NCBI RefSeq assembly: GCF_937123705.1
Contig: NZ_CAKZKO010000139.1
Coordinates: 1 to 64,000 of the forward strand
Source: an uncultured Paraglaciecola sp.
GTDB taxonomy: Bacteria; Pseudomonadota; Gammaproteobacteria; Enterobacterales; Alteromonadaceae
DNA length: 64,000 bases
Reading direction: 5' to 3'
Under the pieces are notes generated by a model. That model saw only the letters and a program-made list of their open reading frames with translations. It made no database searches and had not been told where the DNA came from. Of the stretch, positions 25,903-33,267 are shown piece by piece. The translations under genes and the position numbers were made by a program. Within the stretch, counting starts at the first letter, position 1. Each line of letters opens with the position of its first letter.

Positions 25903-28596
25903 TTACTGCAAGACTGACTGCAATGTCTCCAAAAGATCAGAAAGCTCTACCGGCTTGGCCAAATGTCCATCAAATCCTTCGCGTTTATACTTCTTAATGT
26001 CGTCTCTCATAGCATTGGCTGTAAGTGCATAAATAGGCACTTTGGGTTGAATGGATTTTATATTTCTACAGGCTTCAATACCGTCTAACTTGGGCATTTG
26101 AATGTCCATTAAAATAATATCAGGAGAATTATTTTTATGGGCTTCTATTGCCTCTTGCCCATCAACTGCAAATATCAGCTTGGCTTGAGTAGGTTCAAGC
26201 ATCGCTTCAACTACCAAGCGGTTTATTTCATTATCTTCCGCTATCAGGATAGTCTTTCCAGCAAAATCAACGTCCTCAGCTTGAAAGCTTCTTGGTTCCA
26301 CCGCGGGCACACTTGCCTTTTTAAGTGGCAAGGTTACGCTCATCGTTGTTCCTTGCCCTAGTTGGCTCTCGACTTTGATTTCTCCGCCCATTAAATTGAC
26401 CAAAGAGTAAGTGATTGACAAACCTAGCCCGGTTCCTCCAAATTTTCGAGTTGTTGTATTATCGGCTTGTTCAAACCGCTGAAAAAGCCGCTGCTGATGC
26501 GTCTCCTCTATGCCAATGCCGGTATCTTTTACAACAAAAACTAAATGTTCATTAGCCTTATCTAGACTAGCGCTTAACGCGACACTTCCTTTTTCCGTAA
26601 ATTTAATCGCATTTGAACCGATATTCAGTATCACTTGGCGAATACGTGTGGGATCACCCACCCAAAACTGATGTTCAACATGATTCGATAGCTCAAAGGC
26701 AATATTTTTCTGGCTGGCCTGTACTGATAAATCAGAAAGTAAATACTCTAACAATTTGGCTAGATTAAAGTCGCTGCTCTCCAGTTCAAGTTTACCGGCT
26801 TCAATTTTGGAAAAATCAAGAATGTCATTAATGATGACATTCAAACTTTTAGTGGAATAAAGGGCTTTTTCTAACAAATTGCTCCCTTGCTTAGTGATCA
26901 CTTCTTTCTTAAGCACTTGCAAAGTGCCATGGATCCCATTGAGAGGGGTGCGAATTTCGTGGCTCATATTTGATAAAAACTCAGACTTGGCCAAATTAGC
27001 TTGCTTAGCCTGCTCAGTTGCTTGGGCCAACTCCTTTTCATGATTCAGCTGCTCGGTTAAGTCGTAGGCGATACCCAGAAAGCCAAACAAGCGTCCTTGG
27101 TCGTCGAATAAACTACTCACATTAAGCCGCACGGGAATATACCTTCCACTCTTATGTACGTAATTCCAACGGTTAACATCAGGCTCGCCAAGGCGCGCTT
27201 TGGCAACAAACACTTCAAACCCCACTTCTATTTCCTGTTGCAATTCCTTGGATAAGACGTCTGCTCTAGCGACGACTTCATCAATAACATGAAATATCGC
27301 TGGTGTTTGCTTTCCTATCACCTCTTCATCTGAATACCCTAACAGCTTTTCGGCGGCGGGATTAAATGCAGTAATATTGCCAATTTCGTCGGTGGCTACA
27401 ATCGCATAACCTGCGCCTTCAAGAATGTTGCGCTGCAAAGCACTCACTTCAGATATTTCTTTGGTCCTTCTCGACACTTCATCTTCAAGTCGGTGATTGA
27501 CTTGTTTAAGGTTTTCTTCGGTTATCTTGGCTATTTCAGCTTTGTAAGCGGATGCCTGAGCTCGCCTTAACATGGTTAATTGCACACTAAAGACAATCAA
27601 CATAAGTAAAACGGTGGCGCCTAAAGTAGTGGCAAAAATCTGGTAGTTTTTAGGAAGTAATAAAGCATCAATATATGCTTGTTTGGCAGTTAATTGTAAT
27701 TGCCAATGACGGCCAAAAAGGTCTATCGCTGTATTGCTATGATAATCAGGGATTCCTTTATCCAGCGTGCCAAATTGAAAAAAACTGGTAGCGGTTTCAA
27801 ACTCAACATCCGTGATATTAAAGACTACATCAGGTTTTAAGACACTCATAGAATTTAATACATCACCTATTAATATGGATGCATAAGTCCAACCTGTTAC
27901 GCTGTTCAGCCTTTGCTCAATACTTTTTGGTACGGGAGTGGAGCTATAAATTGGCATCATAATTAAGAATCCATGACGTACCTTATCTTCAGCCTGAACC
28001 AGAGTAATGGGTGACGTTAATCTCACTTGGTTATGCTTTGCAGATTCAATAGCCGCAAACCTTCTACCGGGCTCCGAACCTATATCTAAGCCAACGGCTT
28101 GTTGATTTTTTTGCTCAGGCTCAATATATTGGATCACAAATAAGTTATCTTGATGAGGGGCTAATTGACGGATATCAAAAGTTTTGTCGGGTCTATCTTG
28201 CCTTGCCTGCTCGGTAAACAAACTTTGTTGTTCTGGTGTAATTAAGCGGATTAAGCCAAAACCGTTAGCCCCTGAGAATTCAGTCTCTATATCTCTGGTT
28301 TGGCTATAGGCCTGCATTTGGGGATAATTAAATTTATCTATACCCGTGGCCATAACGACGCCACCAAGCCCCTTTAAACCATATTGAAATAGTGTTACCG
28401 ACTCAACTACAACTTCTGCTATTTGTTCGAGTCGAGTATCAAGGCTTGCTTGAATATGTTGTTTGTTTTCATTCGCCTGTTGATTTTCTAAGTAGGTGGC
28501 AATGAAAAAACCAACAATAAAGATAGCCAAAGGCAACCAAATCAAATTCGGCTTTTTATACTCTGCATAAGATGCAGTTTGTTCATGTTGTTGCAT
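25903..28596 (-). CDS. CHASE-PAS hybrid sensor histidine kinase
   Basis: An 897-residue membrane sensor. Order: transmembrane helix (19-36), periplasmic CHASE domain (about 80-300), second transmembrane helix (about 320-340), coiled coil, PAS (about 395-510, GYAIVATDEIGNITAFNPA), HisKA with phospho-acceptor H546 (MSHEIRTPLNG), HATPase (NIGSNAIKFTE; GTGLGLSI), and a receiver domain with D831 (LMDIQMPKLDG). No separate response regulator gene is next to it, so the output partner lies elsewhere. The signal is unknown; CHASE domains usually bind small extracellular molecules. Confidence 0.94.
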   Translation of the reverse strand: MQQHEQTASYAEYKKPNLIWLPLAIFIVGFFIATYLENQQANENKQHIQASLDTRLEQIAEVVVESVTLFQYGLKGLGGVVMATGIDKFNYPQMQAYSQTRDIETEFSGANGFGLIRLITPEQQSLFTEQARQDRPDKTFDIRQLAPHQDNLFVIQYIEPEQKNQQAVGLDIGSEPGRRFAAIESAKHNQVRLTSPITLVQAEDKVRHGFLIMMPIYSSTPVPKSIEQRLNSVTGWTYASILIGDVLNSMSVLKPDVVFNITDVEFETATSFFQFGTLDKGIPDYHSNTAIDLFGRHWQLQLTAKQAYIDALLLPKNYQIFATTLGATVLLMLIVFSVQLTMLRRAQASAYKAEIAKITEENLKQVNHRLEDEVSRRTKEISEVSALQRNILEGAGYAIVATDEIGNITAFNPAAEKLLGYSDEEVIGKQTPAIFHVIDEVVARADVLSKELQQEIEVGFEVFVAKARLGEPDVNRWNYVHKSGRYIPVRLNVSSLFDDQGRLFGFLGIAYDLTEQLNHEKELAQATEQAKQANLAKSEFLSNMSHEIRTPLNGIHGTLQVLKKEVITKQGSNLLEKALYSTKSLNVIINDILDFSKIEAGKLELESSDFNLAKLLEYLLSDLSVQASQKNIAFELSNHVEHQFWVGDPTRIRQVILNIGSNAIKFTEKGSVALSASLDKANEHLVFVVKDTGIGIEETHQQRLFQRFEQADNTTTRKFGGTGLGLSITYSLVNLMGGEIKVESQLGQGTTMSVTLPLKKASVPAVEPRSFQAEDVDFAGKTILIAEDNEINRLVVEAMLEPTQAKLIFAVDGQEAIEAHKNNSPDIILMDIQMPKLDGIEACRNIKSIQPKVPIYALTANAMRDDIKKYKREGFDGHLAKPVELSDLLETLQSVLQ

Positions 28597-28666: not shown

Positions 28667-29395
28667 TCAATCTGTGCTTGCCAAGCTTAACATTAGTGCA
28701 TAGTTTTCTGCCAGTCGATTGGCATCCTGTCGATCAAACTTGACTGACGGCAATTCGGCCATATTGATGGTTTGACTAGCGTTAAACAAGGCCATTACAT
28801 CAACCGTAAAGTTAAGTGGTGCGGCGTTTGGCACCAAACTACTATTGAGTTCAAATTGCAGAATTTTTAGGTTTTCGCTAAACCCAAGGTGATAAACCAA
28901 GGCCTGCTTTTGAGATGTTAGAGACAGGTCGCCTTCAAATAACACAAATTTATAGCCTACCTCCCAACTCCAGGCCATTCTGCTGTTGGGATCAAGATCG
29001 CCTCTTGGCATAATAGAAGCATTAGCTTGATCATCCACACCTATAGATATTTGTACGCCGCTGTATTCATCGTAAGGCACATCTTTGAGGGTGATTTGGT
29101 AACTTTTAGTATCGTTATCGAATCGGGCCAAATGATAGCTATCACTAGGCTTATAACGGCTGTGTTTACCCACTAATTGCACATTGCTGAGATAAAATTG
29201 AAAGTTACGAACGCTGAAGTGACCTTCTCCTCCGGGATTGGAGTAAAGGGGTTGGTTGAACTCAAGGGGGGTGTTGTTGGCAATGGCACGGAATTTCAAT
29301 ATCACAGTTCCGCTTTGGTGATAATAAAACTGCAAATAAATACCGCCTAATAGTGCGACACAACCAATGGATAATGCTAACCAAAATTTTTTCAT
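28667..29395 (-). CDS. MbnP-family copper-binding-like periplasmic protein
   Basis: An exported (N-terminal membrane anchor or signal, residues 5-25) protein of the MbnP family. The family's Trp-rich signature is present as MAWSWEVGYKFVLFEG; in the characterised pair a Trp of MbnP is oxidised to kynurenine by MbnH to build a copper site. The early FSVRNFQFYLSNVQLV motif is also typical. It starts 5 bases after the MbnH-like gene, so the two are co-translated. No methanobactin biosynthesis gene is near. Confidence 0.85.
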   Translation of the reverse strand: MKKFWLALSIGCVALLGGIYLQFYYHQSGTVILKFRAIANNTPLEFNQPLYSNPGGEGHFSVRNFQFYLSNVQLVGKHSRYKPSDSYHLARFDNDTKSYQITLKDVPYDEYSGVQISIGVDDQANASIMPRGDLDPNSRMAWSWEVGYKFVLFEGDLSLTSQKQALVYHLGFSENLKILQFELNSSLVPNAAPLNFTVDVMALFNASQTINMAELPSVKFDRQDANRLAENYALMLSLASTD

Positions 29396-29400
29396 CTAGG

Positions 29401-30510
29401 TTATCTCTCCTCGGCGAAAGGATCAGATATAGATGGGTCCTTGATAAAGGTGTGGTCGGTTAAAGTATGTAAAAAAGCAATAATCGCGACTTTTTCATCC
29501 TCTGATAGGTTAAGGCTAAGAGTGCCTTGATGCTGTTCATTATTCGCTTCAACAATTAACGGGCTTAACGTAGAACTGTATTTTATTTGACCATTGTAGT
29601 GTTCTAATACCTGTTCTAATGTGGTAAAACGTCCATCATGCATATAGGGAGAGGTAAGGGCTATATTACGTAAACTTGGCACCTTAAATTTACCTCTGTC
29701 GCTGGGTTGTCCTGTGACGCTCTGCAGACCCGGTTGCAGATTTTCTTCAGTGTCCAAACCATTATTCAAAAATCCGTCGAATTTGTCTTTGAAACCGCTG
29801 GTTAAAAACTGGCTATGACAATCGATGCAATTTCCGCCACGTAGATTCACTTTTACATCGGGATGGGCCATAAATAGTTTTCTTCCCAGCTCTTCCGTAG
29901 CGTTGAGTTTTAACTCTCCCCGTAAATATTGATCATACTTAGAGTTGGCAGAAATCAGGATGCGTTCAAAACTGGCAAGAGCACGGCCAATGCTACTGGC
30001 GCTAATTTCACCATAGGCGGTTTCAAACAACCTCACATAAACCGGTACGGCCTCTAATTCTGCAATTAATTGATCCATATCTTGGTCCATCTCATCGGGA
30101 TGCAAGATAGGCAAGATTGCCTGCTCCTCTAGTGATGACACCCGTCCATCCCAAAAAAAATGCTGAGGCCCCCACATGGCATTGGCTAGTGTCATGCTAT
30201 TAAAAGCAAGGGGAATGCCAGATACACCTACAGAGTGAGCTTTGCCGTCAGTAAAAGCTAGATGTTGCTGATGGCATGTGGCACAAGATACCCTGTTATT
30301 GCCTGATAACAGCGGGTCATAGAACAACCTACGACCCAGCTCCACCCCTTCAACCGTCAATGGGTTATCAATGGGAAGACTAAAATTTCCGTAGACAAAA
30401 GGGGCGCTGAACGCAGTAAAAGGCGTGCTTGGAGGTTTAGCAGGGTTAAATACCACAAAGAGCATCAGCAATACTGCACCGCTCAATATCAATAGTAAAA
30501 GTTTTGACAT
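29401..30510 (-). CDS. Diheme MbnH/MauG-like cytochrome c peroxidase family protein
   Basis: A periplasmic diheme enzyme that probably makes a high-valent iron species for long-range oxidation of a partner protein. Two haem c sites: C76-A-T-C-H80 and C228-I-D-C-H232. An N-terminal hydrophobic segment (residues 4-20) anchors or exports it. Signatures YDPLLSGNNRVSCATCH, FFWDGRVSSLEEQA and SPYMHDGRFTTLEQVLEHY are typical of the MauG/BCCP superfamily. The adjacent MbnP gene and 369-residue length favour the MbnH branch. Confidence 0.9.
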   Translation of the reverse strand: MSKLLLLILSGAVLLMLFVVFNPAKPPSTPFTAFSAPFVYGNFSLPIDNPLTVEGVELGRRLFYDPLLSGNNRVSCATCHQQHLAFTDGKAHSVGVSGIPLAFNSMTLANAMWGPQHFFWDGRVSSLEEQAILPILHPDEMDQDMDQLIAELEAVPVYVRLFETAYGEISASSIGRALASFERILISANSKYDQYLRGELKLNATEELGRKLFMAHPDVKVNLRGGNCIDCHSQFLTSGFKDKFDGFLNNGLDTEENLQPGLQSVTGQPSDRGKFKVPSLRNIALTSPYMHDGRFTTLEQVLEHYNGQIKYSSTLSPLIVEANNEQHQGTLSLNLSEDEKVAIIAFLHTLTDHTFIKDPSISDPFAEER

Positions 30511-30549
30511 AGTTACAATCGTTGAGCCTTATTAATCAGCAAGAAGCTC

Positions 30550-30593
30550 TGGTGAGGCACAACACAGGGGATACCAAATGTTTTGCCTCACCA
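30550..30593. repeat. Inverted repeat between the propeller and MbnH-like genes
   Basis: Perfect 10-bp arms tggtgaggca (30550-30559) / tgcctcacca (30584-30593) with a 24-base loop and no T-run. It lies inside the cluster's 91-base gap and may set the ratio of the flanking transcripts or be a regulator site. Confidence 0.5.
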
Positions 30594-30601
30594 ACTAAGG
30601 C

Positions 30602-31963
30602 TTAATGATGATGGGTAAAACCCGATCCAAATAAAGATTCGATGTTATCAATGCCTTTATTATAACGCTGCTTAAAATCGATAGTGGCCAAACGCTTGCT
30701 GTCTGCAAGGTCATGTACAGTCACTGTATGGGCATTCAATTTAGCCATAAAATCAACGTCGGTGGGGTCATTATCCTTAGCATTACCTAAATTAAGCAGG
30801 TTGTTCTGCACCGCCACCAGTTGTTTTCCCGTTTTAGATGGAAAGAAAATGATATGATGGGCGCCTGCGCCTGTGACCAAATCAGGACCCGAAGTCACAA
30901 GTTCAGGCAAACTAGCTAGGTCGTAGCGTTTGACTGAGCCAGGTATTCCGTGACTAATAAAGAGTTCAGTTTCATTGCCATAAAATTCAAGAGGAACGCC
31001 CGTTCCTTGTTCAGCACCATCATAGAGTTTAACTGGCTTGCTAAAGGTTTTGCTGGCGGCGTCAAAAGGCACTTTCCAAGTTTCAAAACCAAACATAGTA
31101 TTAACCAGAACGGCAGGCTCAACATCCTCAACAATACTGGGACGTAAAAATAACACTTCAACAGGGGAAGACGGGTAACCAACGGGCTTTGAATCTTCCA
31201 CCACAATGTTTTGTATCGCCGTAAAAGTGTTGAGATCAATGACGGTGATGCTATTACCTACTCCCGAAGCAAGATCCGGATGCACTGTAGAAGTAACCAC
31301 CATGCGATCGCCATAGGCTGAAATCCCGTGGGGATACATAATGAAAGGTTCTCCTTCAGCAACTAGGCTCTTGCGAGCTTCAATTGTTTTAACCAAAGCA
31401 TTACTCTGGGGATCAAACACACCAACAGAGCCAGCATCTACTTGCTCAACCCCAGTGCCGCCCAAGAAAGTGACATACATGTATTCAGTATCATTCACTG
31501 TATGCCACATAATATCCTCACCAACCTGTTGACCACCTGTATCCAAACATTCCAGTCCCGTTATTTGCGGGGTGCCGGTCAAGTCTCGCGAAAGCCCAAC
31601 TTCTGCCAAGCTGCAAGCGGGGTCAAGGCCTGTGGCATAGACACGACCGGTGGGACTGTAATAAATATGATGCAGCGGGGCATTGATATTGATGTTGGGA
31701 GTTTCAAACTCACTCAAAATATCGCCGAAATTTTCTGACTCAGGATCCAGCTCAATAATCGCAATGCTACTTACTGTATTCAGAGTAGGTAAACCACGTA
31801 ATAATGCGATGGCTTGGGTTTCCTCGCTATTGGAGTTATCAACTTGGGGCGCGGATGCCTCAGAACTCGGAGTAACAGCTGGTTTTTCAACTTCTTTGGA
31901 ACATGAGGATAAAACAAAAACAACACAAACAGACAATAAAATACTGCTTAGAAACCTTTTCAT
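30602..31963 (-). CDS. Lipoprotein beta-propeller, distantly SBP56/methanethiol-oxidase-like
   Basis: A 453-residue lipoprotein (lipobox LSSC at residues 18-21) with repeated beta-propeller blades. Some segments resemble selenium-binding protein 56/methanethiol oxidase: SSPVEVLFLRP, MYPHGISAYGDRMVVTS and LFISHGIPGSVKRYDLASLP. Histidine-bearing motifs (APLHHIYYSPTGRVY, GAGAHHIIFFPS and a terminal HHH) could hold metal. Methanethiol oxidases are copper-dependent and are known to sit near MauG-like genes, so this place next to MbnH/MbnP is suggestive. It could also be a generic YncE-like propeller; similarity is by eye only. Confidence 0.6.
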   Translation of the reverse strand: MKRFLSSILLSVCVVFVLSSCSKEVEKPAVTPSSEASAPQVDNSNSEETQAIALLRGLPTLNTVSSIAIIELDPESENFGDILSEFETPNININAPLHHIYYSPTGRVYATGLDPACSLAEVGLSRDLTGTPQITGLECLDTGGQQVGEDIMWHTVNDTEYMYVTFLGGTGVEQVDAGSVGVFDPQSNALVKTIEARKSLVAEGEPFIMYPHGISAYGDRMVVTSTVHPDLASGVGNSITVIDLNTFTAIQNIVVEDSKPVGYPSSPVEVLFLRPSIVEDVEPAVLVNTMFGFETWKVPFDAASKTFSKPVKLYDGAEQGTGVPLEFYGNETELFISHGIPGSVKRYDLASLPELVTSGPDLVTGAGAHHIIFFPSKTGKQLVAVQNNLLNLGNAKDNDPTDVDFMAKLNAHTVTVHDLADSKRLATIDFKQRYNKGIDNIESLFGSGFTHHH

Positions 31964-32133
31964 GAAGATACTCCCTAACCTTTTTTATTTGCTTAACAAA
32001 GAGTTAATAACATAAAAAAGGTATAGACCAACTTGCCTTTTTTACAAGCTGACAGCGCTCAAGGGACAATATATCTTCGCTGGTGTAACTTTGTGCGCCT
32101 CCTCGATATTCTAATATTGGCGGAGCGGCTACC

Positions 32134-33267
32134 TTATTTTTCTTGCACACCTGTGCAATTTTGCATCCGAGCAGAGAGTCCCCAGCCCCCAAACTTGTCT
32201 GCAACCACAGCTCGCAATATATTTTTGCCCTTATTCAAAGGAACAAAGGCAACCAATTGTTCCGGATGCATCAAACCATCTTGAGGTCTAAAGCCATAAC
32301 GATAACTCGCATCTTGATAAACAATAAGCTGGTCGTTTACTGATAAGGTTAACTCATCACTGAAGCCCAAATGCACTTCGCAAACGCTTGCTTGGGACGA
32401 CAGCAACACAGTATCTGCAGCAACCGTCCAATGCTTAAAGCCTTTAGGAATATCTCTTGAACGTAGAAACTCAAAACTGCCATCATGTTGCATACTTGGC
32501 TTAGACCATTTTTTGGCAGAAACCTCGGCCGGTATTTCGGTGACAGGGCCTTTTTTTGTATCGAATGCTGGTGATACGCGCCAGTTCGTCAATTGCCCTT
32601 CGGGTGAAGACATTGTGATGGCCGTAACACCTGAAGATTCAGATGGGGTGACGGTTAACCCACTAAAATAAGCACTATAAGGTGCGGGACTATTTTTTGG
32701 CACAAAACCACGAAACGCTAACCAACCTGCTTTAGGTGCATGCCCTAACTGATTAACCACCATGGCAGGTTTCGACATATCACCTATCCAAAACTTGGCT
32801 TTTTCTCCCGCTAATTCAATTTTGACTTTTATCCATTTATCGGCGAGCAACGCAGCGCCAGCAGTGCCTTTGTCGCCATGGTATAGCTGCCAAGCTGAAC
32901 GTTTTTGGAAAACAGGAGCATATTGCAGCGCATCGGGAGAATTATGTTTATGAGTCCGAACATAAAACGCCTCAACATCACGCTGAGATTGCCCTCTGAA
33001 ATACAAATAAGCAAAGGCACGCTCACCAGAAAGGTACATATCAAATTCAATAGTGCCATCTTCAAACAACACGTCTTCAAGCAATGCTTTTCCTGAACCA
33101 ATTTTTATGGCCTTTTTACCCGCAATTGTCTCAATTTTTATATTCTTATTGTCAAATTTCCAATTTTTACTATCAGCAGTAAACACTTGTTGTGCTGAAA
33201 CATAATCCGAAACGAGAAGTAGCAACATTATGCTGAAGTGACAGATTAGCTGGTTACGTGATTTCAT
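32134..33267 (-). CDS. Exported lectin-fold protein (DUF1080/LamG-like)
   Basis: A 377-residue secreted protein: signal peptide to about residue 25 (VSAQQ). An N-terminal concanavalin A-like beta-sandwich follows (GTIEFDMYLSGERAFAYLYF; YHGDKGTAGAALLADKWIKV; GWLAFRGFVPKN), as in DUF1080/3-keto-disaccharide hydrolase-type domains. The C-terminal jelly-roll (LHLGFSDELTLSVNDQLIVY; KGKNILRAVVADKFGGWG) resembles carbohydrate-binding or PA14-like modules. No catalytic residues could be picked out. It is the upstream gene of the minus-strand cluster with the propeller and MbnH/MbnP, 170 bases before the propeller gene. Confidence 0.7.
   Translation of the reverse strand: MKSRNQLICHFSIMLLLLVSDYVSAQQVFTADSKNWKFDNKNIKIETIAGKKAIKIGSGKALLEDVLFEDGTIEFDMYLSGERAFAYLYFRGQSQRDVEAFYVRTHKHNSPDALQYAPVFQKRSAWQLYHGDKGTAGAALLADKWIKVKIELAGEKAKFWIGDMSKPAMVVNQLGHAPKAGWLAFRGFVPKNSPAPYSAYFSGLTVTPSESSGVTAITMSSPEGQLTNWRVSPAFDTKKGPVTEIPAEVSAKKWSKPSMQHDGSFEFLRSRDIPKGFKHWTVAADTVLLSSQASVCEVHLGFSDELTLSVNDQLIVYQDASYRYGFRPQDGLMHPEQLVAFVPLNKGKNILRAVVADKFGGWGLSARMQNCTGVQEK

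Follow-up and report, generated by a model that had tools for sequence, protein, structure and literature searches.

A divergent SBP56-like propeller gene in strict linkage with an MbnH/MbnP-type gene pair: a candidate periplasmic copper system

What do the diheme enzyme MbnH and its partner MbnP serve outside methanobactin operons? Pairs of their genes reach far beyond the producers of methanobactin, and a 2013 survey treated them under the heading 'mysterious partners' (PMC3621798). The question is raised anew by a stretch of DNA from an uncultured Paraglaciecola species, called the window below (64,000 nucleotides, positions 1 to 64,000 of contig NZ_CAKZKO010000139.1 in assembly GCF_937123705.1). 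On its minus strand a gene for an SBP56-like beta-propeller of 453 amino acids (30602-31963) is followed by one for an MbnH-like diheme enzyme of the bCcP/MauG superfamily (369 amino acids, 29401-30510) and one for a short MbnP-like protein (242 amino acids, 28667-29395). An earlier note, made from the sequence alone, had added to these three an adjoining gene for a lectin-like protein and had seen in the four a copper-loaded periplasmic oxidase system with its own copper-handling pair. All four open reading frames (ORFs) are present on that one strand, at the coordinates given here and below. The reading reached here, which is given an even chance of being right, is of a three-gene periplasmic copper system in which an SBP56-like copper propeller enzyme would be accompanied by a kynurenine-type copper-handling MbnH/MbnP pair. 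What is new is the strict linkage of a divergent SBP56-fold propeller with a divergent MbnH/MbnP pair; the kinds of component were already known, and a whole-word search of one literature collection, judged by its ranked output, gave no paper naming both SBP56 and MbnP.

A conserved three-gene unit

Across 84,980 species genomes a pattern scan returned 32 loci, whose encoded propellers are 64-82% identical, and frame-by-frame BLAST found the order propeller-MbnH-MbnP on one strand in 30 of them, so that the neighbourhood in other genomes, whose comparison the earlier note had proposed as a check, is far from random. The conserved unit is these three genes. Both exceptions lie at contig ends: the contig of locus L014 ends inside the propeller gene, and the match in L033 stops 76 bases before the end of its contig. 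Counted among the 30 are L021, with its MbnP gene cut by the contig end, and L038, with its propeller gene cut in the same way; L014 and L038 both belong to the genome of Paraglaciecola sp. MB-3u-78, on separate contigs. Leisingera or Ruegeria account for 17 of the 32 loci, which hence are not 32 independent cases. The Ruegeria loci have flanks in common, those of Leisingera and Ruegeria agree in part, and gammaproteobacterial flanks differ. The other hosts are Alteromonas, Paraglaciecola, Bowmanella and Thalassotalea, together with metagenome-assembled genomes (MAGs) labelled Colwellia, SAR86, Woeseiaceae, Gemmatimonadales and others.

Around the window's genome the propeller is present in 3 of 118 genomes (the window's own, G017 and G050, the last of which carries all three genes), and over 398 genomes of the phylum its profile gave three matches, one of them of the L069 type described below. 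No tblastn match to the propeller was obtained on plasmids. Two weak N-terminal matches to SBP56 were obtained in the genome of L010 (a Gemmatimonadales MAG, G630), in frames of 494 and 504 amino acids away from that locus's propeller, and are possibly further propeller copies.

Gene spacing is operon-like. With start codons picked by alignment, the propeller and MbnH genes are 5-52 nucleotides apart in most loci and 70, 90 or 142 in a few, and the MbnH and MbnP genes overlap or are separated by up to 17 nucleotides; in the window the ORF coordinates give gaps of 91 and 5 nucleotides respectively, with 170 between the lectin-like gene and the propeller gene. Co-evolution as judged from pairwise identities (Spearman 0.39-0.54, Pearson 0.74-0.85) is not used as an argument.

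The propeller as a distant relative of SBP56

For the propeller an alignment of 32 rows was built from 30 of the 32 scan loci, the window and L005; L033 and L038 were dropped as fragments, L014 was kept, cut at residue 388, and many rows begin at the tblastn match, with signal peptides missing. The best match of the resulting profile in the PDB is the SBP56 protein 2ece (E 0.024), over the HH motif, and hhalign against ten SBP56 sequences gives a probability of 67 (E 5e-5), the propeller alignment being shallow (Neff 1.6). A bridge is offered by propellers of the L069 type: the propeller profile gives them 87-95 bits and the SBP56 profile 31-35, and by these scores they are an intermediate between the two families. 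For the predicted structure of the window's propeller 2ece again ranks first, with Foldseek (2.3e-10) and with VIA-align (Z 24.5), at 14-17% identity over the structure. The propeller is thus probably a distant relative of SBP56/methanethiol oxidase (MTO), and by the Pfam threshold not a member of SBP56.

Propellers of the L069 type (L069:9823-11004; L107, L108, L109 and L110) come from five genomes of one other gammaproteobacterial genus and are 90-100% alike. No MbnH or MbnP profile match was found at these loci within the stretch read. A conserved membrane-like protein of 472 amino acids shares the stretch with the propeller in all five, the L069 copy being without a Pfam match. SBP56 itself was found in none of 98 relatives of the window's genome at E 0.001. 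The propeller was also considered as a replacement for SBP56, and no simple exclusion emerged, as of 30 propeller genomes (that of L009 left out) 8 have an SBP56 above cut-off.

A ring of His, Asp and Glu

One motif per blade is invariant in the propeller: H98 H99, D150, H212, E269, E326 and H369 H370, to which a C-terminal HHH is added. The ring residues are the same in all 32 propellers and in the five L069-type proteins, and the HHH terminus is present in 31 of 31 complete propellers. When the strands that begin at residues 97, 147, 209, 266, 324 and 368 of the model are taken as the inner strands of six blades, a motif residue (H99, D150, H212, E269, E326, H370) stands, within one residue, third from the start of each. 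Invariant His, Asp and Glu occupy 29 of 408 positions, and the chance of six falling in one register would be about 1e-7, or 6e-5 with a one-residue shift, figures that are a guide only as the register was chosen by eye.

In SELENBP1 all six residues tested, H73, H74, H137, H140, D189 and E252, are needed for activity (PMC10362175), and in the Hyphomicrobium MTO H89, H90, H140 and H412 are thought to be used (PMC5739008). When 12 of the 32 propellers, one of the five L069-type proteins and ten SBP56 rows were aligned with MAFFT in three modes, every mode set H98-H99 and E269 on the HH and Glu of SBP56 (SELENBP1 H73 H74 E252) and brought the C-terminal His of the two families together. In the structural comparison residue 453, where the model ends, is matched with 2ece 446, which adjoins that protein's C-terminal His (445 by our own count); this tail is poorly modelled. 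SELENBP1 H137xxH140 and D189 are not matched; the propeller has D150xxW153 and H212 or P211 instead. Blade symmetry in the model favours H212 as the counterpart of D189, the register of the swapped pair not being secure. If this mapping holds, two SBP56 ligands seem to have changed places and blade 6 to have gained an HH, which would leave a permuted ring with His and Asp exchanged between neighbouring blades relative to SBP56; W153 would therefore stand at the place of SELENBP1 H140, a match made in only one of the three MAFFT modes. All 32 operon propellers have W153, where the five L069-type proteins have Leu. Two further Trp of the SBP56 alignment, W225 and W386, invariant or nearly so there, are not kept in the propeller. 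C117 and C139 of the propeller are also invariant, the latter in the L069 type as well, and could form a disulfide.

The MbnH-like and MbnP-like partners

The diheme product has a Pfam CCP_MauG match, two CXXCH motifs (residues 76-80 and 228-232) and, by eye, an N-terminal hydrophobic segment. Its best NCBIfam model is that of MbnH, TIGR04039 (6e-78, 262 bits), which is below the cut-off of 363, and the model for the MauG of tryptophan tryptophylquinone (TTQ) synthesis, TIGR03791, gives 181 bits. Among solved structures its best match is 6e1c, labelled 'Di-heme enzyme' (3.4e-54), and the best peroxidase-labelled chain is 1iqc (1.5e-37). The identification as MbnH made in the earlier note stands insofar as MbnH is the nearest model of the MauG superfamily and 6e1c the top structure, and falls short at the TIGR04039 cut-off. 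That of MbnP is firm, the product of 28667-29395 scoring 132.7 bits against a cut-off of 27 with Pfam MbnP (PF20243); with the NCBIfam model TIGR04052 it reaches 48 bits, the cut-off being 140. From these sub-cut-off TIGR04039 and TIGR04052 scores, and from 6e1c as the top structural match to the diheme protein, both partners are by sequence outlying members of the MbnH/MbnP pair.

Alignments of 20 MbnH and 22 MbnP sequences were assembled for completeness and spread. M140-A-W142-x-W144 and H169 are invariant in all 22 MbnP sequences, so that the conserved Trp, whose absence the earlier note had named as a refutation, is present. The WxW and the His of 'HLG' (H169 in the window's MbnP) are kept in ordinary and operon MbnPs alike. 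Beyond residue 30 there is no Cys in 18 of the 22 operon proteins, the window's included, and there are two in the other four, as compared with six to eight in seven ordinary MbnPs. The AlphaFold model of the window's MbnP has a pLDDT of 86, with the loop 129-146 that includes WxW poor, and its only fold match at E < 0.001 is 7l6g, the MbnP of M. trichosporium (8.3e-8). A 2021 study in PNAS is reported to have found that MbnH converts the first Trp of WxW to kynurenine, and that otherwise Cu(I) is not bound by MbnP.

Ordinary pairs served as a control. MbnP was found in 9 of 249 genomes of the phylum, the window's own included, and the nine control loci are those of the eight other genomes and a second pair of the window's own. 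In all nine the MbnP gene is followed by an MbnH-like one, the reverse of the order in the propeller unit, and two profiles found the propeller in none within the stretch read. The MbnPs of L097 and L098 were missed by the profile of the MbnP alignment and recognised by eye, and that of L098 is in no alignment. The second pair of the window's genome (L070, contig C23) is of the ordinary Cys-rich kind and lies beside a large, divergently placed ORF. The genome's one protein of the MbnB_TglH_ChrH family is encoded outside the window, on contig C37; MbnA, the methanobactin precursor, was not searched for.

A possible copper route

For bacterial MTO an mtoX-SCO1/SenC-mauG operon has been published (Eyice et al. 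2017, PMC5739008), and there the reason for MauG-like genes beside the oxidase is only hypothesised. At four of four loci with MTO-type SBP56, SCO1 and a diheme gene lie beside the propeller gene (SCO1 being Pfam-confirmed in L072 only), and the same profile found the diheme gene at none of five canonical SBP56 loci. BLAST with the L072 SCO1 matches L072-L075 only and none of the 32 propeller loci, where a remote SCO1 could escape.

In the system proposed for the window, the propeller would be an exported, seven-bladed lipoprotein, each blade contributing one metal-ligand motif to the wall of a central channel, and this channel probably holds copper as the active site of an oxidase. As in the characterised pair, MbnH would create a Cu(I) site on MbnP by oxidising the first WxW Trp to kynurenine, and MbnP may in turn hand copper to the propeller, standing in for the SCO1 of mtoX-SCO1-mauG operons. 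A small thiol is a guess at the substrate, made by analogy. Of the oxidase system that the earlier note envisaged, the core, an SBP56-like copper propeller with an MbnH/MbnP pair of its own, is supported by the linkage, the fold and profile bridge and the mtoX parallel; that it is a copper-loaded oxidase may be inferred. A bolder form of the proposal, in which the propeller would found a new class of copper enzyme with a permuted SBP56 ring, an additional HH in blade 6 and HHH at the C-terminus, loaded by a kynurenine copper protein of MbnH's making, is doubtful and is put forward tentatively.

The strictly linked propeller gives the MbnH/MbnP pair a testable client, and one rule is suggested for both operon types, that an SBP56-fold propeller goes with two helpers, one that handles copper and a diheme enzyme that oxidises Trp. 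Marine bacteria are thereby credited with an unassigned candidate copper enzyme. If the bolder form is true, the pair outside methanobactin operons gains an assigned client enzyme, and the company that SBP56-type oxidases keep with MauG-like genes is explained.

Weighing the explanations

Several points weigh against the propeller as a copper enzyme of SBP56 type with an MbnH/MbnP pair at its service. With the Pfam SBP56 model PF05694 the window's propeller (E 0.0089, 15.3 bits against a cut-off of 34) and the L069-type proteins (15.6-21.1 bits) stay below threshold; 31 of the 32 propeller members match at E up to 1, the best at 8.5e-5, and hhalign against four MTO-type sequences alone gives a probability of 4.3. 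The propeller model has a pLDDT of 76 overall and 33-46 at its C-terminal tail, and other propellers tie with 2ece in VIA-align (Z 24.3 and 23.7). D150 falls on SELENBP1 H137 in one of three MAFFT modes and on a gap in two, and D189 stands against P211, beside H212, in all three and in hhalign. SELENBP1 HH mutants keep normal copper and only those of H137, H140, D189 and E252 lose some of it (PMC10362175); of this copper-affecting set the propeller has a residue of the same kind at the Glu alone. The operon MbnP is also without the 'NH' His carried by eight aligned ordinary MbnPs. The two checks on the propeller that the earlier note had proposed each point two ways: no significant SBP56 match was obtained at the Pfam cut-off or in single-sequence scans, though the bridging profile gave one, and the structure prediction put 2ece in first place with other propellers tied in Z.

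It is unlikely that the propeller, instead of being an enzyme, serves as a metal-binding scaffold, a sensor or a store. No activity is known for it, its ligands differ from the set that affects copper in SELENBP1, and similar folds are found in many unrelated propellers; yet its very high conservation (median pairwise identity 71% among 19 sequences, against 62% for MbnH and 44% for MbnP) and its strict His/Asp/Glu ring suit an active site. It is also quite unlikely that MbnH acts mainly as a peroxidase that clears H2O2 from a propeller oxidase, with MbnP as an electron or copper carrier. SELENBP1 does produce H2O2 from methanethiol (PMC10362175), and MbnH lies within the bCcP/MauG superfamily, but the diheme product is nearer to MbnH than to peroxidase or TTQ MauG by the structure matches and model scores given above, and its gene travels with that of a WxW-containing MbnP. 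The propeller could itself be the substrate of MbnH, with W153 turned into a Trp-derived cofactor beside the metal and MbnP only supplying copper, and this too is quite improbable. MbnP is the established target of MbnH and its WxW is invariant in the operon too, while the Trps of SBP56, W225 and W386, have no counterpart in the propeller and the match of W153 to H140 is confined to one MAFFT mode. Still, W153, three residues after D150, is invariant in the operon propellers and Leu in the L069 type, where the MbnH profile finds nothing, and a TTQ cofactor made by MauG has been proposed for methanethiol oxidase (Eyice et al., PMC5739008).

Surroundings of the unit

The gene for the lectin-like exported protein (32134-33267, minus strand), which resembles a 3-keto-disaccharide hydrolase domain by a weak Pfam match (3keto-disac_hyd, E 1.8e-4, below cut-off), adjoins the unit and is outside it. 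That all four genes are a single functional unit has next to no chance of being right: the shared strand and the 170-nucleotide gap speak for it, but the lectin-like gene is at none of the 32 propeller loci (a few of which have little upstream sequence), and its full relatives, in five other genomes of 118 apart from a 31-residue fragment in G020, are in genomes of which none has the propeller. It is because of these two results that the finding has been cut to three genes, and the four-gene cluster of the earlier note is refuted as far as conservation goes, though the four genes may still share a transcript in this strain. The five full relatives, all from the family of the window's genome, have 30-58% identity.

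A promoter-like block, TTGTAA-16-TATA (32022-32047, minus strand), lies between the lectin-like gene and the propeller gene, 84 bases before the start of the latter, and is promoter-like by its resemblance to the consensus only. A similar block precedes the propeller in L014 and L031 alone, which with the window makes 3 of 13 upstream stretches. The promoter scan of the window was at chance level (9 found against 10.3 expected) and did not list this block; terminator-like sites numbered 9 against 5.2 expected, and none is used as evidence. At the propeller's N-terminus a lipobox can be seen by eye. Directly downstream of the unit, on the same strand, is a gene for a CHASE-PAS hybrid histidine kinase with a receiver domain (25903-28596), the like of which was not found directly beside the unit in other loci. 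By Pfam no shared function was found among flanking genes (one upstream gene in 10 loci, one downstream in 8, and 10 further neighbours). A TonB receptor gene precedes the unit in two loci (L009, L031) and a cation-efflux gene is near it in two (L016, L032).

Comparison with known systems

Nitrous oxide reductase has a ring of His at its propeller hub, and NosZ also has a CuA domain. The nitrous oxide reductase propeller (5i5j) aligns with the window's propeller model at VIA-align Z 22.3; no sequence match to it was seen in the profile search of the PDB, and 453 amino acids leave no room for a CuA domain. With human SELENBP1/SBP56 the propeller has in common a propeller fold, the HH motif, the Glu and the position of the C-terminal His, and differs in being exported, in staying below the Pfam threshold and in that H137xxH140 probably reads D150xxW153.

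The known MbnH/MbnP pair (6e1c, 7l6g; TIGR04039, TIGR04052) provides the closest structures and shares the WxW, whereas here the gene order is reversed, a propeller is linked, MbnP is short with few Cys and without the 'NH' His, and both proteins are below the NCBIfam cut-offs. The mtoX operon likewise sets an SBP56-fold propeller gene, with HH, Glu and C-terminal His, beside copper-handling and diheme MauG-like genes. In contrast to its propeller, that of the window is far diverged, has no firm profile match to MTO-type sequences alone, carries an extra HH in blade 6 and seemingly has the H140- and Asp-type ligands swapped. In another gene order, the window's unit shares the logic of the mtoX operon, MbnP standing where SCO1 does there and MbnH where the MauG-like protein does.

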